Below, in pieces: positions 1,068-39,117 of a stretch of DNA of 64,000 nt; position 1 is the stretch's first letter; each line of letters opens with the position of its first letter. The DNA lies in the NCBI RefSeq assembly GCF_024281235.1, contig NZ_JAHWXY010000001.1, forward strand, positions 1-64,000, in the 5' to 3' direction. This DNA comes from Shinella daejeonensis. Its GTDB lineage: Bacteria > Pseudomonadota > Alphaproteobacteria > Rhizobiales > Rhizobiaceae. The notes below the pieces were generated by a model. The model was given only the letters and a program-made list of their open reading frames with translations. It had not been told where the DNA came from and did not search any database. The position numbers and the translations under genes were made by a program.

Positions 1068-1349
1068 TCAGCGTGCGAACCGGCCGGCAACCCGGTCGGT
1101 CGACGGCGGCTGGCGCTTCGCCGGCAGCACGGAGCCGCGCGGATCGGAGGTCGAGGTGACGGCGCCGCGCTCGGCCCAGGTTTCGAGATCGTCGACGGCA
1201 TAGACGACGCGCCCGCCGAGTTTGCGGTAGGCCGGGCCGGTGCCGTAGGTCCGGTGCTTTTCGAGGGTGCGGGCAGACAGGCTGAGAAACTCAGCGGCTT
1301 CCTTGGTCCGCAGGTAGCGTGGCGGGAGCGCGGCGGTTTCGGGTCGCAT
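1068..1349 (-). CDS. rdfS: RdfS-like excisionase (AlpA/MerR-type HTH, recombination directionality factor)
   Basis: A 93-residue protein with a winged helix-turn-helix of the excisionase/AlpA type: YLRTKEAAEFLSLSARTLEKHR at about residues 12-33 (recognition region) followed by GPAYRKLGGRVVYAVDDLETW. Proteins of this type bind attachment-site DNA and turn the integrase towards excision. It lies downstream of the fseA-type activator and upstream of repA on the same strand, as expected if activation of this gene triggers excision. GGAGG lies 9 nt before the ATG. The RdfS name rests on family and context; an AlpA-like regulator of other genes is the alternative. Confidence 0.7.
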   Translation of the reverse strand: MRPETAALPPRYLRTKEAAEFLSLSARTLEKHRTYGTGPAYRKLGGRVVYAVDDLETWAERGAVTSTSDPRGSVLPAKRQPPSTDRVAGRFAR

Positions 1350-1377
1350 GGGGCGGGCCTCCGTGGGGTTGCTGGGG

Positions 1378-1396
1378 GCCGCTGGCGATCAGCGGC
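1378..1396 (-). promoter_or_regulatory. Inverted repeat upstream of the excisionase gene
   Basis: GCCGCTG and CAGCGGC form a perfect 7-bp inverted repeat around GCGAT, 29 to 47 bp before the excisionase start in the 143-bp gap after the activator gene. It could be a binding site for the FseA-type activator or an mRNA hairpin; there is no T-run, so a terminator is less likely. Confidence 0.35.
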
Positions 1397-1492
1397 TGAC
1401 AACGACCACGGTGGCGGAGAACCGTCGGCGGGATGGATGGGGGACTTGAGGTGGCCTAAATCCCCACCCCGGAAACCATGGCGGCGCGGCGA

Positions 1493-2255
1493 CTAAGGGC
1501 GGCGGCGCTGGCGAAGGAGTTGCAGGTAGCCCCCGTTGATGAGGGCAAGGCCGCCTTCGACGAAGGCAATGACGGCATCACGGAGCGGCGACGTCTTCCA
1601 GGGCTCGGTGTCGACGCGCGCCGCGCCGTAGATTGCAATGGCGATCTCACGATAGGTCGCGCCGTTCATATGGCCGTCGGCGGCGCGCAGCTTCAGCCGA
1701 AAGCGCCGCCGCTGCTCGGCGGTCATGCGCGTGTCGCGCGGCGGCGGGCGGCCGAGCCAGATGCGCGCCATTCGCGCCAGGGCATCGATGCGGTCGAGGA
1801 CGTCGGCATCGAACGGAACCAGCGCCGCGAGCTGGTCGCCTGGAACCGTGCCGGAAAGGAGAAGCACCGGGATGTCGTGCTCGGAGAAGGACGCATAGGC
1901 GCCTTCGGGAGCATTACGCCCTACGGCGAACGGGTCGACGGATACAGCGGCGCCAGGCGGCAGAAACTCGGGTCGGCGCGTCAGCATGAGAACGGCGCCA
2001 TCGCATGAGGGCGACCACAGCACATCTTGGTCCAGCGCGGACAGGCCCGGCCTGGCAGCGAAATCGCAGCCCCCAGAGTTGTTCTGCGTCTTTCGGAAGC
2101 GGTGTGGCTTCGGCGGCCGTATTCACAAGACCGCTGTAAAGTTCCTGATAAGGAACGTATCGGCGAAGGCATTCCCAAGCGAGACCTTCGACCGGCAAGC
2201 TATCGAAATAGTCGTAACGGCTGTCGTCCCGCCAGTCGCTTGTATCTGGCCTCAT
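1493..2255 (-). CDS. fseA: FseA-type excision activator, DUF6499 + DUF2285, made by +1 frameshifting
   Basis: Two overlapping frames make one protein of about 253 residues. The upstream frame starts at ATG 2255 (MRPDTSDWRDDSRYDYFD, 8 nt after GGAG) and encodes a DUF6499-like domain ending in LWGLRF. The zero frame then becomes arginine-rich nonsense to a stop at 1914. Moving +1 at the TTT-C (2063-2060) gives AARPGLSALDQDVLWSP and a complete DUF2285 domain to the stop at 1493. In ICEMlSymR7A, FseA is made the same way, by slippage of tRNA-Phe from UUU to UUC, and activates the excisionase gene rdfS. The excisionase-like gene lies next downstream here too. A GTG at 2023 could also start the second half alone. 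Confidence 0.85.
2060..2063 (-). other. Candidate programmed +1 ribosomal frameshift site (UUU C)
   Basis: The mRNA reads CTG CGA TTT CGC in the zero frame, with TTT as codon 65 from the start at 2255. Slippage onto TTC and resumption at GCT (2059) restores the DUF2285 frame. The site ends a conserved-looking LWGLRF motif, matching the known UUU to UUC slip of FseA in Mesorhizobium. Confidence 0.75.
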
Positions 2256-2381: not shown

Positions 2382-2642
2382 TCAGCCGGGGGGCTGGCGC
2401 AGAAGGTGCCGATAGCCGGTATGCGTCATCCAGCGGGCGCGAGCGAGATGGCTTTCGTGGATGCGTCGGCAGCGTTCGGGGTCGCCTGATGGATCGAGAC
2501 CAAACAGGATCTGCACCGCCTCGGTCCAATCGGCGCCATCCGCATCCGCGTCCAGCAAGCGCGCGTACAGTTTGACGTGCGCCTTGTCATAGGCGGTCAG
2601 TTCCTGCCCTGCCGGCGCGGTATCTTCGTAAGTCTCGGTCAT
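2382..2642 (-). CDS. QseM-like DUF2285 small protein (candidate antiactivator)
   Basis: An 86-residue protein starting MTETYEDTAPAGQELTAYD, with a compact helical domain (YARLLDADADGADWTEAVQILF ... RRIHESHLARARWMTHTGYRHLL) like the DUF2285 relatives encoded beside excision genes of alphaproteobacterial ICEs. In Mesorhizobium, QseM binds and blocks both TraR and FseA. The position directly upstream of the fseA-type gene and downstream of a small HTH regulator fits this role, but the function is inferred. An in-frame start further up at 2711 would add residues unlike the family, so the ATG at 2642 is preferred. Confidence 0.6.
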   Translation of the reverse strand: MTETYEDTAPAGQELTAYDKAHVKLYARLLDADADGADWTEAVQILFGLDPSGDPERCRRIHESHLARARWMTHTGYRHLLRQPPG

Positions 2643-2735: not shown

Positions 2736-3002
2736 TCAGCGCGCGGCATTGGATGGGTTGGGCTTATTTCCGCGATCATCGACCAGCAACACTCCTTGCC
2801 CTTTATCGGTGGACAGAAGGACGATGCCGGCCGCTTCCAAGGCCCTGCGCACCTGATCGCGCGTCGTCTCGTACACGTCGAGCCCGCTTTCGGATTCGAG
2901 GCGTTTGAGCGCGGTCAAGGCTACCTGGGCGCGGTCAGCGAGCGTCTCCTGTGTCCAGCCGAGCAACGCGCGTGCGGCCCGTGATTGTCGGGCGGTGATC
3001 AT
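2736..3002 (-). CDS. XRE-type HTH regulator, QseC-like
   Basis: An 88-residue protein whose first 60 residues form a Cro/C1-type helix-turn-helix: ARQSRAARALLGWTQETLADRAQVALTALKRLESESG, followed by a short region ([14 protein letters not shown]) typical of small XRE regulators. It lies 93 bp upstream of the QseM-like gene on the same strand. In the Mesorhizobium ICE, QseC controls qseM; here the same pair is kept. Its start at 3002 follows a perfect Shine-Dalgarno GGAGGTGATC that is part of a palindrome reaching into the coding start, and another palindrome lies 44 bp upstream, so autoregulation is likely. Confidence 0.7.
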   Translation of the reverse strand: MITARQSRAARALLGWTQETLADRAQVALTALKRLESESGLDVYETTRDQVRRALEAAGIVLLSTDKGQGVLLVDDRGNKPNPSNAAR

Positions 3003-4949: not shown

Positions 4950-5142
4950 CGCCGCCCCCCCGTGTCAGCGATTGAAGCCGAATGGCGGAAACGCGCCGAA
5001 GGCGTGGTTCCGGCGAAGCCGAAAGCGCGGCACGAAGGGCAACGCCATAGTGATCGCTGCAATCCGGCTTCTATGAACCATTGCAAAAGTCGCTATTCTA
5101 CAGCGACGCAAAAAATCAGGCGTGAAAGTCTCGCTCCAATCG
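4950..5142 (+). repeat. Cassette-border repeat copy R1
   Basis: About 193 bp, closely similar to R2 (6588-6779) over its whole length and to R3 (7497-7629) from 5002 onwards. Shared landmarks are GTGGTTCCGGCGA, GCAATCCGGCTTCT, TTCTACAGCGA and a final CTCGCT..AATCG. R1 contains GTCGCT-ATTCTAC-AGCGAC, a small inverted repeat, near its right part. The sequence drifts between copies in a way that does not preserve one reading frame, so it is probably not coding. It ends just before the phosphotransferase gene. Confidence 0.8.
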
Positions 5143-5165: not shown

Positions 5166-6074
5166 ATGTTGAGTAGTATCGAAAATCTTGGCGTATCCAT
5201 AAACGCCGAACTGGCGCGGCGACTGATAGCTGCGCAGTTTCCAGAATGGTCTAACTTGCCGGTCACGGCCATAGAACCCGGCGGGTGGGACAATCGCACT
5301 TTCCGACTTGGAGATCATATGTCGGTGCGCCTGCCAAGCGCACGCGCCTATGCCGCTCAGGTGGAGAAGGAACACGAATGGTTGCCGAGACTCGCGCCGC
5401 ACCTGCCGCTACCAATCCCTGTCCCGCTGGCGAAGGGATCACCGGCCGAGGGCTACCCTTGGCCTTGGTCGATTTATGAATGGCTGGATGGCGAGCCGGT
5501 AACGGCAGATAATATTTCCGGCTGGACCGGGTTTGCCCGTTCGGTCGCCCGCTTTCTCGCCGCCTTGCATCGTATAGATGCGACGGGCGGGCCTCTGCCG
5601 GGACAGCACAATTTCCATCGTGGTGGCCGTCTCGCTCTCTATGATGCGGAAACCCGGTCCACGCTGACGGCGCTCGCCGGGCGCATGGATACGGCGGTTG
5701 CAGGTGACATATGGACGGCCGCGCTATCGTCGGAGTGGCACGGCTCGCCGCTATGGGTCCATGGCGATATGTCATCCGGCAACCTTCTCGTGAAGGATGG
5801 CGCTCTATGTGCTGTGATTGATTTCGGCTGCTCGGCAGCAGGCGACCCCGCTTGCGATCTTGTGATTGCATGGACGCTGCTTTCCGGCGAGAGCCGGGAA
5901 GCATTTCGCGCCGCGCTTCCCCTCGATAGGGACACTTGGAATCGGGCTCGCGGGTGGGCCTTGTGGAAAGCCCTGATTACCGTCGCAGATCAAGGCAAGG
6001 GTCAGCCCGAACAGGAATCGTCGTGGCAGGTCATAGGTGAGCTAGTGGCCGACTACCGCCAGCAGCGGAACTAA
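5166..6074 (+). CDS. Aminoglycoside phosphotransferase family protein
   Basis: 302 residues with the APH fold: nucleotide-binding N-lobe ([33 protein letters not shown]), catalytic loop [13 protein letters not shown] (about residues 197-209) and the metal-binding segment [16 protein letters not shown]. Such kinases phosphorylate aminoglycosides or related small molecules using ATP; the substrate cannot be told from sequence, so resistance is not shown. ATG 5166 is chosen because the open frame upstream to 4926 runs through the repeat R1, which is not coding elsewhere, and because 302 residues is normal for the family. It is the first gene of the cargo block. Confidence 0.85.
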
Positions 6075-6587: not shown

Positions 6588-6779
6588 CGCCGCCCCCGTG
6601 TCAGCGATTGAAGCCGAATGGCGGAAACGCGCCAAAGGCGTGGTTCCGGCGAAGCCGAAAGCGCGGCCCGCAGGGAGACACCATAAAAGCCGCTGTAATC
6701 CGGTTTCTATGCACCGTCGCAAAAACGGCCATTCTACAGAAATGCAAAACTCAGATGCGAAAGGCTCGCTTTAATCGGA
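6588..6779 (+). repeat. Cassette-border repeat copy R2
   Basis: 192 bp, the second copy of the repeat described for R1; nearly identical to R1 over its first 80 bp (CCCGTGTCAGCGATTGAAGC onwards) and more diverged after that. It separates the DUF2200 gene from the LysE gene. Confidence 0.8.
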
Positions 6780-7496: not shown

Positions 7497-7629
7497 GCGT
7501 GGTTCCGGCGACGCCGAAAGCGTGGCCCGCAGGGCGACACCAAATCAGCCCCTGCAATCCGGCTTCTGCCTACGGTCGCTCTTCTACAGCGATGCAAAAA
7601 TCGGACGCAGAACTCTCGCTTTATTCGGA
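7497..7629 (+). repeat. Cassette-border repeat copy R3 (shorter)
   Basis: 133 bp, third copy. It lacks the first 50 bp of R1 and R2, starting at GCGTGGTTCCGG, and follows the LysE stop by 16 bp. It contains TCGCT-CTTCTAC-AGCGA, the same small inverted repeat as in R1. Confidence 0.75.
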
Positions 7630-36537: not shown

Positions 36538-37876
36538 CGGCGTTCAAAACCTTGAGGTCGGCGAGGAAGATCGTGCCGATCTCAACGGCCTGCTTTGCCG
36601 CATCCGAGTCGACGTCGACGCCATGCGACGCTTCGTTCATAACCCGCAGCGCGCCGAGCATCTCATCGGTGCTCGCAGGCACCGGACCCTGCCGTCGTAG
36701 GTCGCGCAGCATGTTCACAATACCTGTGGGGCGATCGAAGACGATACCTCTTGCGAAGGCGAGGTCGCGGACCGCCCGCTCGATTTCAATGCGAAGCTTG
36801 ACCACGGACATCAAGGGGAACTCGCGCGCGAACTCCGCAACGGTCGGCAGATCCTCAGCAAACTGGGGTGGGAGCGCATGGGAGAGCTGATACTGAGCGA
36901 CGCCCATCGGTTTACTGGAATCTCGCAGCGCGTATTCGACGATCACCTCGTTGCGCCCCTTGCACACGATGATGCCGATGGTTGGCTTGTCATCCGGATG
37001 GCGCAACTGCTCGTCGACGGCCGACAGGTAGAAATTCATCTTGCCCGCAAACTCAGGCTTGAAGTCCTCGATCTTCAGCTCGATCACCACGAAGCAGCGC
37101 AGGCGGAGGTGGTAGAAAAGCAGGTCGAGGTAATAGTCCTGACCGCCCACTTCGAGGTGATACTGGCTCTCGACGAAAGCGAAGCCCTTGCCGAGTTCGA
37201 GGATCAGCGAGCGCAGATGCTCGATCAGCCCGCGTTCCAGATCCCGCTCCAGCATGTCCGGGCCGAGCGAGAGGAAGTCGAAGGTGTAGGGGTCTTTGAG
37301 GAGCTGTTGGGCAAGCTCGGATTGCGCGGCCGGCAGGGTGCGCGAGAAATTGGTGAGCGCGCTGCCTTGGCGGACGAACAGATTGCTCTCGATCTGATGG
37401 ACGAGGACGGGCCGGGTCCAGCCATGCTCGATCGCCTGCCGGGCATACCAGGCGCGTTCTTCGGGCGCCTTCACGGCATCTAGCAGGCTGACGTTATGGC
37501 CCCAGGGCAATTGTGCAACGACCCGTTGCACAATTTCGGGATCGGGCCAGGCATCGGCCAAAGCCCGCATATATTTGAGGTTTCGGGACGAAAGTCCGGT
37601 CATCTCGGGAAACGCCAGCCGGAGATCCCCGGCCAACCGGTCGACGACCTTGGTACCCCAACCCTCGCGTTCCTGCCGAGCGAGAATATCCCGCCCGATG
37701 GTCCAGTAGAGCACGATCATCTCGCGGTTCACCGACATGCTGGCGCGGTGCCGGGCTTCGATGATCTTCTGCTTCAGGTCGCCGACGAAGGCCGCATAGC
37801 TTTGCGGGTCGATGTCGGTGGCCGCCGCGCCGGTCTTCGCGCGGCGAGGGGCAGGGGATTTGGGCGGCAGCGTCAT
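36530..37876 (-). CDS. DUF1016 (YhcG) PD-(D/E)XK nuclease
   Basis: 448 residues. The N-terminal DUF1016_N part (YAAFVGDLKQKIIEARHRA, LYWTIGRDI, LSSRNLKYMRALADAWPDPEIVQ, AQLPWGHN) is followed by the nuclease core: GGQDYYLDLLFYHLRLRCFVVIELKIEDF (aspartate, then E-x-K) and KMNFYLSAVDEQLRHPDDKPTIGIIVC. Beyond about residue 335 there is an extra 110-residue C-terminal region (MSVVKLRIEIERAVRDLAF ... EIGTIFLADLK) longer than standard YhcG. The start overlaps the integrase stop by one base (TGATG). DUF1016 proteins are frequent on mobile elements and in defence islands; the exact role is open. Confidence 0.85.
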   Translation of the reverse strand: MTLPPKSPAPRRAKTGAAATDIDPQSYAAFVGDLKQKIIEARHRASMSVNREMIVLYWTIGRDILARQEREGWGTKVVDRLAGDLRLAFPEMTGLSSRNLKYMRALADAWPDPEIVQRVVAQLPWGHNVSLLDAVKAPEERAWYARQAIEHGWTRPVLVHQIESNLFVRQGSALTNFSRTLPAAQSELAQQLLKDPYTFDFLSLGPDMLERDLERGLIEHLRSLILELGKGFAFVESQYHLEVGGQDYYLDLLFYHLRLRCFVVIELKIEDFKPEFAGKMNFYLSAVDEQLRHPDDKPTIGIIVCKGRNEVIVEYALRDSSKPMGVAQYQLSHALPPQFAEDLPTVAEFAREFPLMSVVKLRIEIERAVRDLAFARGIVFDRPTGIVNMLRDLRRQGPVPASTDEMLGALRVMNEASHGVDVDSDAAKQAVEIGTIFLADLKVLNADD

Positions 37877-39117
37877 CAAGCAGCCGCCTTCAGGCGCTTC
37901 TTCGCCAGCATGGCGCGGACGAACTTGTCCCATTTCGCCATGCCCGCGCGCTTCTCGACCATATAGTGCCAGCGGTCGTAGTGCTTGGAGCTGACGTCCT
38001 GCAGCGCGTGGTTCTGGAGGCGGTCGCGGATTTCCTTCGATATGCCCGCCTTGCCGGCGAGCGTCTTGAAGGTGCGGCGCAGATCGCGATTCGTCGCATA
38101 GGGGATCACACCCCGATCGCGCTGACGCCAGACGAAGCTATAGAGCGTGCCGTGGCTGACGGGCTTTGACGGGTCTTTGGCAGACGGGAAGAACCAGCCG
38201 TATTCGTTCGGCGTGATCGACTCGATCAACTCGGCGGCGAGCAAGGGCACCGGAACGGCGTGAGGCTGGTCGTTCTTGGTCTTGGACCAGTCGATGATGC
38301 GCTCCTTGGCATCCCACTGATCGACATGCAGGCGCGCAATCTCTTCGACGCGCTGGCCGGTCAGCATGATGATCTGCACGGCGCGCGGGTAGGACGGATG
38401 GACCGGGGTGTCGGGGCATTCGAGCCACCGATAGAGCTGGACGAACTCGTCTTCATCGAGCCAGCGCGTGCCCTGAACCTTCGGCTCGGTCGGGATGCCC
38501 GTCGCCGGATTGAACGGGATGCGGAAGCGGCGGGAGGATTGCTGCCGATAGTCGTTGTCGGACTTCATGCCCCAGGCGAAGGCGGCATGGAGATAGGAGC
38601 GCACATGGTCGGCCATCGACTTCGCGCCGCGATCGTAGATAGGGCGGATGATTTCGATGATCTCCTCAGCCTCGATCTCGCGGGCGAGGCGATTGCGCCC
38701 GAGCGTGTCGGCGATCTTGTTGAGGCCCTTTTCGGTCTCCTTCCACGAGGGCTTTCCGGCGTCCTTGAGCGCGGCGACATAGCCCTCGAACAGATCGGCG
38801 ACCGTGCCGGGGCGCGTGTCGGTGGCGATCTTGATGCTCCGGCCTTTCTGGATGACGTCGGCAAAGTCGCGCTTGAAGATCTCGCGGGCCTGGGCGAGCG
38901 ACATCGAGGGATAGGCGCCGAGCTTCTTCTTTGTGCGCTTACCGTCGCGCCATTGCTGCGCCATCCAGTCGGCGGTGACACGCTTCGGCATTGGTTTGAG
39001 AACGAGGACGAGACGGCCGGTGCCGCGTCCTTCACCATCGGCGAGGTTTTCCTGCTTCTGGCTCAACTCGACGCGCTTGAGCGCATGTCTGATCGTGGAG
39101 TCGGTGAGTGCGGCCAT
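37876..39117 (-). CDS. Tyrosine integrase, P4-like
   Basis: 413 residues. N-terminal DUF4102-type arm-binding domain (LGAYPSMSLAQAREI, WMAQQWRDGKRTKKKLG), core-binding domain, and catalytic domain with arginine (MLTGQRVEEIARL), lysine region (WSKTKNDQPHAVPV), second arginine (TNRDLRRTFKTLAG; the box II histidine is arginine, common in this subfamily), and the tyrosine nucleophile in SSKHYDRWHY. It catalyses integration and, with the excisionase, excision. Adjacent to the right attachment site in radC. It is the first gene of the operon that continues with the DUF1016 nuclease. Confidence 0.95.
   Translation of the reverse strand: MAALTDSTIRHALKRVELSQKQENLADGEGRGTGRLVLVLKPMPKRVTADWMAQQWRDGKRTKKKLGAYPSMSLAQAREIFKRDFADVIQKGRSIKIATDTRPGTVADLFEGYVAALKDAGKPSWKETEKGLNKIADTLGRNRLAREIEAEEIIEIIRPIYDRGAKSMADHVRSYLHAAFAWGMKSDNDYRQQSSRRFRIPFNPATGIPTEPKVQGTRWLDEDEFVQLYRWLECPDTPVHPSYPRAVQIIMLTGQRVEEIARLHVDQWDAKERIIDWSKTKNDQPHAVPVPLLAAELIESITPNEYGWFFPSAKDPSKPVSHGTLYSFVWRQRDRGVIPYATNRDLRRTFKTLAGKAGISKEIRDRLQNHALQDVSSKHYDRWHYMVEKRAGMAKWDKFVRAMLAKKRLKAAA

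Follow-up and report, generated by a model that had tools for sequence, protein, structure and literature searches.

Organization of the locus

The window analysed here is a stretch of 64,000 nucleotides of Shinella daejeonensis DNA. Near its beginning, on the minus strand, lies a gene that is divided between two reading frames (Table 1). It starts with an ATG at 2255-2253, which by sequence reading is accompanied by a GAGGAG at 2269-2264. The conserved part of frame 0 ends in EQLWGLRF, with UUU at 2063-2061, and the next base is the C at 2060. The +1 frame, read from 2059, opens with AARPGLSALDQDVLWSP and encodes the residues A-A-R-P-G-L-S-A-L-D-Q, followed by the DUF2285 domain and a stop at 1495-1493. 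The gene thus has the domain order of FseA, an N-terminal DUF6499 and a C-terminal DUF2285, both above their Pfam cut-offs. The initial annotation had described an activator split over two frames into these two halves, and this description was borne out with exact coordinates. Because frame 0 stays open past the junction to a stop at 1916-1914, the split is one of overlapping frames, with about 70 codons open in both. The tail that would be read in the event of no slip varies in length across 205 such genes (median 17 codons, range 0-236). A PDB sequence search with the DUF2285 half gave no match at E<=1, and NCBIfam and PHROGs held no family for either half of fseA or for the qseM-like gene upstream.

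Table 1. Features of the fseA region, and the integrase, in the window
Feature	Positions	Strand	Basis
Frame-0 half, DUF6499 (Trans_reg_dom, PF20109), ATG to slip codon, 65 codons	2061..2255	-	Pfam 65 bits, cut-off 23.8
+1-frame half, DUF2285 (RovC_DNA-bd, PF10074), 188 codons + stop	1493..2059	-	Pfam 118.6 bits (1493-2023), cut-off 26.4; +1 coding constraint from slip codon
Recoding element TGG GGG CTG CGA TTT C: SD-like GGGGG, CGA codon, slip codon UUU, skipped C	2060..2075	-	sequence; conservation; genome-wide specificity
Slip tetramer UUU-C	2060..2063	-	sequence; conservation in relatives and survey
Frame-0 tail (read if no slip), 48 codons + stop	1914..2060	-	ORF reading
rdfS-like excisionase gene, presumed activator target	1068..1349	-	HTH_17 41.8 bits; phrog_66 excisionase 39.2 bits; TIGR01764 below cut-off
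fseA-rdfS intergenic region, conserved block, presumed activator binding region	1350..1492	-	alignment, window and 18 distinct relatives
qseM-like lone DUF2285 gene, presumed antiactivator	2382..2642	-	PF10074 24.6 bits (2382-2627), below 26.4 cut-off
XRE-type HTH gene upstream, QseC-like by position only	2736..3002	-	HTH_3 22.4 bits, below cut-off 23
Tyrosine integrase	37876..39117	-	Phage_integrase 38.5 bits

The neighbouring genes are widely shared among the 23 close relatives described below. The qseM-like gene, upstream of fseA on the same strand, and the XRE gene have homologues in all 23. An rdfS-like homologue occurs in 22, lying directly downstream of fseA in 21 and about 3.7 kb away in the other (L035); none was found in L036 among the 23 relatives examined. 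The likeness to FseA in having an rdfS-type gene nearby is one of neighbourhood, not of regulation. The conserved block between fseA and rdfS is visible in 16 of the 18 distinct relatives, the exceptions being L035 and L036. FseA boxes have been described as inverted hexamers 15-16 bp apart upstream of rdfS; a search of the window without consensus letters found no exact inverted hexamer at 14-18 bp.

The stretch beyond the rdfS-like gene is annotated in plasmid records as replication initiator A, and a tandem repeat (138-205, period 24, 2.9 copies) lies in this replication-initiator-like frame. The integrase is probably near the chromosomal side of the element, and ordinary chromosomal genes (phaC, moeA) come after it. 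Since the contig ends at window base 1, the conjugation genes of the element are out of view. Elsewhere in the genome there are four TrbE/VirB4-type matches, one of them 15 kb from an fseA copy on contig C35. Cargo between 8663 and 32212 includes a SLOG-type YAcAr protein, a DUF7146/Toprim protein, a Strawberry-notch-type helicase, a weak ParB-like match and a DnaE-type polymerase adjoining an ImuB-like Y-family protein. Three direct repeats of 83 nt (5002-5084, 6638-6720 and 7497-7579), two of them 82-83% identical to the reference copy, adjoin small genes for an APH-family kinase, DUF2200 and LysE, an arrangement that resembles a cassette-like accessory array within the element. The APH-family kinase gene (5175-6074), 3 kb away from fseA, scores at best 30 bits, far below the resistance-family cut-off of 205.

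Conservation in close relatives and in the host genome

One scan of genome contigs with the DUF2285 half yielded 23 loci, 18 of them distinct at the gene (several are near-copies), and their named records include Kaistia, Devosia, Camelimonas, Aureimonas, Rhizobium, Paracoccus and Novosphingobium. The two halves are offset by +1 in all 23, and none of the 23 carries an uninterrupted single frame. The initial annotation had proposed comparing the LRF-UUUC site across homologues and had named close homologues with a single frame as the finding that would speak against it. The comparison gave CGA-UUU-C in 22 of the 23 relatives and CGA-UUU-U in one (L035), and the single-frame homologues that do exist are more distant. 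In the host genome, 4.66 Mb in 37 contigs, there are six fseA-type genes, every one of them offset by +1 with UUUC. These lie on contigs C1, C6, C11, C31, C35 and C36 and share one recoding element. The genus draw added 20 genomes of 4.8-7.0 Mb, and one of them (G1019) likewise has six PF20109 matches.

Survey of DUF6499/DUF2285 pairs

PF20109 was searched in five overlapping draws of genomes, with matches in 25 of 385 genomes for the class, 61 of 297 for the order, 43 of 398 for the phylum, 8 of 21 for the genus and 58 of 199 for the family. DUF6499 was paired with DUF2285 by home-made profiles, and with the named relatives added there were 253 distinct pairs; nine DUF6499 matches lacking a downstream DUF2285 were excluded before counting, and 13 listed PF20109 places were also left out. 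The pairs comprised 210 offset by +1, 41 in a single frame, one offset by +2 (L096) and one in the same frame with a stop near its start (L229). The last was set aside, though it is labelled split in the tree, so that the out-of-frame set numbers 211.

In 210 of these 211 pairs an in-frame UUU-Y stands at the site, the skipped base being a pyrimidine throughout (192 C, 18 U; no A or G). A restriction to pyrimidines is striking in this comparison, since the skipped base would code for nothing in the product. Re-pairing by a GAA anticodon predicts UUU-Y and not UUU-A or UUU-G. The anchor TGGGG...TTTY is fitted by 205 of the 211 pairs (187 with C, 18 with U); of the six that depart from it, all but L044, which has UGU-C, still carry UUUC at the slip position. 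With an anchor on TGG-GG alone, which does not require UUU-Y, 125 of 128 split genes fit (the exceptions being L044, L051 and L065), and UUU stands where expected in 124 of these and is displaced downstream by one codon in the remaining one.

In the fseA copy L044 (1501-1800), UGU-C replaces UUU-Y and TGGAGG replaces TGGGGG. Both are changed together, as expected under decay, and this gene may be decayed. L096 has an extra frame change downstream, and a further single gene of the survey has a stop in the +1 frame; L096 and L044 look like decayed members of the family. Single-frame fseA-like genes are also found duplicated on one contig, about 0.9 kb apart at L231 and about 16 kb apart for L193 and L194.

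A quick tree of DUF2285 alone (247 rows, six weak single-frame rows having been left out of the 253; 104 columns; many unresolved forks) places the window in two starred clades, one of 20 and one of 76 rows, that consist of split genes throughout; no single-frame member was found in the larger. Split and single-frame rows come no nearer to each other than 0.85 changes per column. The split and single-frame labels require 10 changes on the tree, at least four of them forced by starred branches. Pairs from outside the class were all single-frame (13 of 13, a small sample), and PMC10359603 reports the site in the beta and gamma classes as well.

Coding constraint across the junction

Substitutions were counted in 50 gene pairs, each gene being used once, in 15-nt blocks and by frame-0 codon position. 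In the 15 nt before the slip codon the counts at positions 1, 2 and 3 were 7/5/22, and in the next 15 nt, which begin with the slip codon, they were 31/7/2, so the third-position excess switches at the slip codon from frame 0 to the +1 frame. The +1 third position keeps the largest count in the next six blocks, to nt 104, and the frame-0 signal is weaker further upstream (42/30/49 at nt -60 to -46). The initial annotation had located the slip at 2063-2060, and the site proved exact to the base. The spacing of residues agrees with this. In the pattern W-G-L-x-x-x-x-D-P, 26 of 35 distinct single-frame homologues have D/N/S/T-P at the same place. Split genes show this spacing too when a +1 shift is applied, so the slip must move the frame by +1 without inserting a residue.

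These counts bear on the strongest alternative, that two separate proteins are made, with DUF2285 translated from a start of its own (for example GTG at 2023) and the halves pairing without fusion. Such an arrangement has been argued for in Azorhizobium caulinodans (PMC9601964), and 191 of 204 split genes do have an ATG, GTG or TTG in the +1 frame between the slip site and DUF2285. The remaining 13 have none before DUF2285. Moreover, the +1 frame is constrained from the slip codon, ahead of any start: sorted by +1 codon position, the substitutions that fall between the slip and the first +1 start codon number 60/36/137, and the window compared with eight members of its clade gives 4/1/31 over the 36 nt that separate the slip from the first +1 start. 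Coding constraint ahead of any start codon argues against two separately initiated proteins, and also against decay. Separate proteins would in addition have no evident reason to keep UUU-Y, and this alternative is considered very unlikely.

Nucleotide constraint beyond the tetramer

The conserved sequence is specific to these genes in the host. Across the 4.66 Mb genome there are six occurrences of UGGGGNNUGCGAUUUC and no more, all at the six fseA genes, and the 16-mer TGGGGNNTGCGATTTC likewise occurs six times, precisely at the six fseA-like genes, with none for the backward control. Within the window TGGGGNYTGCGATTTC occurs once, against 0.00 in 100 shuffles. In the larger draws, matches to the 16-mer fell at PF20109 places in 48 of 57 cases for the family (199 genomes) and in 38 of 48 for the order (297 genomes), the host's own six sites being in both. 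Over these two draws 19 of 105 rows lie off fseA, and since the backward control remained at 0 in both tables despite these matches, it understates chance. Use of the element outside fseA was considered and dismissed as chance, as no fseA domains were found at the 19 off-fseA matches or at 95 matches in IMG/VR.

Codon choice was examined in a thinned set of 123 split genes with less than 70% identity around the site. Since they all come from the 205 genes that had been selected by the TTTY anchor, the tetramer is better judged from the 210 of 211 given above; binomial p-values on the thinned codon counts ignore common descent. As background, within the surveyed genes TTT makes up 29% of Phe codons, CGA 9.2% of Arg, GGG 11.9% of Gly and TTG 11.1% of Leu. 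At the element of the thinned set, CGA accounts for 67 of the 77 Arg codons that precede the slip codon, GGG for 90 of the 123 Gly codons (versus 6 of 35 distinct single-frame homologues) and TTG for 60 of 106 Leu codons. The synonymous codons TTT, CGA, GGG and TTG of the element thus depart from the gene background. On these counts, the constraint extends past the UUUC tetramer, which is an addition of the present analysis. The SD-like UGGGGG is already described in PMC10359603. For the CGA codon no mention was found in the literature searched, in so far as its text was available; the 2015 PNAS first description of the site lies outside that literature, so the codon is not claimed as unreported.

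This codon choice is relevant to another alternative, namely that the frames are joined by transcript slippage or by a shift elsewhere in the overlap and not by P-site slippage of tRNA-Phe at UUUC. The overlap of about 70 codons would permit other places by frame alone. Against this, the codon periodicity switches exactly at the slip codon, and the choice of TTT, CGA, GGG and TTG in the element departs from the background. Ordinary transcript slippage needs a longer run than three U, and the run here is only three. Joining by such means appears less probable still than separate proteins.

It is possible, at somewhat less than even odds, that the recoding signal is a composite 16-nt cassette, UGGGGNNUGCGAUUUY, with CGA as an active part, and not just UUUC. 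CGA is read through an inosine-A pair. It might give a weak E-site contact and so more slippage, with the GGGGG 6 nt upstream setting a low baseline. CGA cannot be strictly required, given that 46 of the 123 thinned split genes have a residue other than Arg before the slip codon. If the composite view is correct, the presence of the same cassette in all six fseA genes of one cell would imply joint tuning by one cellular condition, a candidate being the charging of tRNA-Arg-ICG or tRNA-Phe.

Proposed mechanism

Taken together, the geometry, the conservation of the site, the +1 coding from the slip codon and the gene neighbourhood support by comparison, with a probability of about 0.93, the reading that the gene is the fseA of an integrative element and that its product is a DUF6499-DUF2285 activator of the neighbouring rdfS-like gene made by a +1 slip at UUUC. 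The +1 slip best fits the conserved tetramer, the periodicity switch and the unchanged residue spacing in these alignments, and the same three observations support the FseA mechanism proposed in the initial annotation. Ribosomes would translate DUF6499 in frame 0 and arrive at the UUU at 2063-2061. The majority would stay in frame 0, giving a short DUF6499 protein. The anticodon of tRNA-Phe is GAA, and in a minority of ribosomes it would re-pair from UUU to UUC, so that C 2060 is skipped as a coding base. These ribosomes would enter DUF2285 and complete a transcription activator of 65 + 188 codons, which would turn on the rdfS-like excisionase gene, and the lone DUF2285 protein from the upstream gene would restrain it. 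Low slip efficiency, rdfS activation and antiactivation are features that we infer from ICEMlSymR7A, and work on that element (PMC10359603, PMC5009743) likewise suggests that recoding would limit excision.

A pseudogene or an error of sequencing or assembly, as might be thought from frames separated by a single base and from occasional decayed-looking members such as L044 and L096, can be dismissed as the least probable reading of all, because the same geometry recurs in the 23 relatives from other assemblies and in the six host copies, UUU-Y is kept in all but one of the out-of-frame pairs, and both halves evolve as proteins.

The locus provides a clean and conserved case of recoding in genes that, according to PMC10359603, annotation pipelines do not annotate as intact proteins. 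The survey yields a simple DNA signature that helps to find frameshifted fseA genes, together with a testable claim, that the codon preceding the slip codon belongs to the signal. The results are also relevant to a dispute in the literature over frameshifting in a related element (PMC9601964).

Comparison with known systems

The +1 frameshift of prfB (RF2) resembles the present one in having an internal SD-like GGGGG and a +1 P-site slip, and a four-pyrimidine slip sequence is common to both, CUUU in prfB and UUUC here (PMC12421855). In contrast to prfB, there is no stop codon in the A site, the sense codon CGC coming next; the distance from the SD-like run to the slip codon is 6 nt (CUGCGA) instead of 3 nt; and nothing here points to autoregulation by a release factor.

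Single-frame FseA-like regulators share both domains and, in 26 of 35 distinct cases, the residue spacing noted above. They differ in using one frame and in having many different codons at the slip position. The Pfam name of the DUF2285 domain itself derives from RovC.

For Azorhizobium caulinodans, PMC9601964 describes halves with their own start and stop codons and no use of a frameshift. The comparative data argue against this view for the family at large, the A. caulinodans strain itself being outside the comparison.

The closest likeness is to FseA (msi172-msi171) of ICEMlSymR7A from Mesorhizobium japonicum R7A, in which DUF6499 and DUF2285 also lie in overlapping frames joined by a +1 shift (PMC10359603, PMC5009743) and the shift also adjoins a WGL coded by UGGGGG. 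As in FseA, a +1 offset separates the halves here, and the slip site is conserved. The reported target in ICEMlSymR7A is rdfS of the same element, and here the neighbouring rdfS-like gene is the presumed target; similarly, the lone DUF2285 antiactivator QseM has its presumed counterpart in the qseM-like gene. The arrangement differs. In R7A, fseA belongs to a traI2-msi172-msi171 operon under TraR (PMC5882170), whereas here fseA has the qseM-like and XRE genes upstream of it, on its own strand, and the rdfS-like gene directly downstream. About 61% of 4709 curated FseA homologues are reported in PMC10359603 to require the shift, and a split fseA is therefore less surprising than the initial annotation held. 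The family and the predicted mechanism are those of FseA of ICEMlSymR7A, a known kind and not a new one (PMC10359603, PMC5009743).
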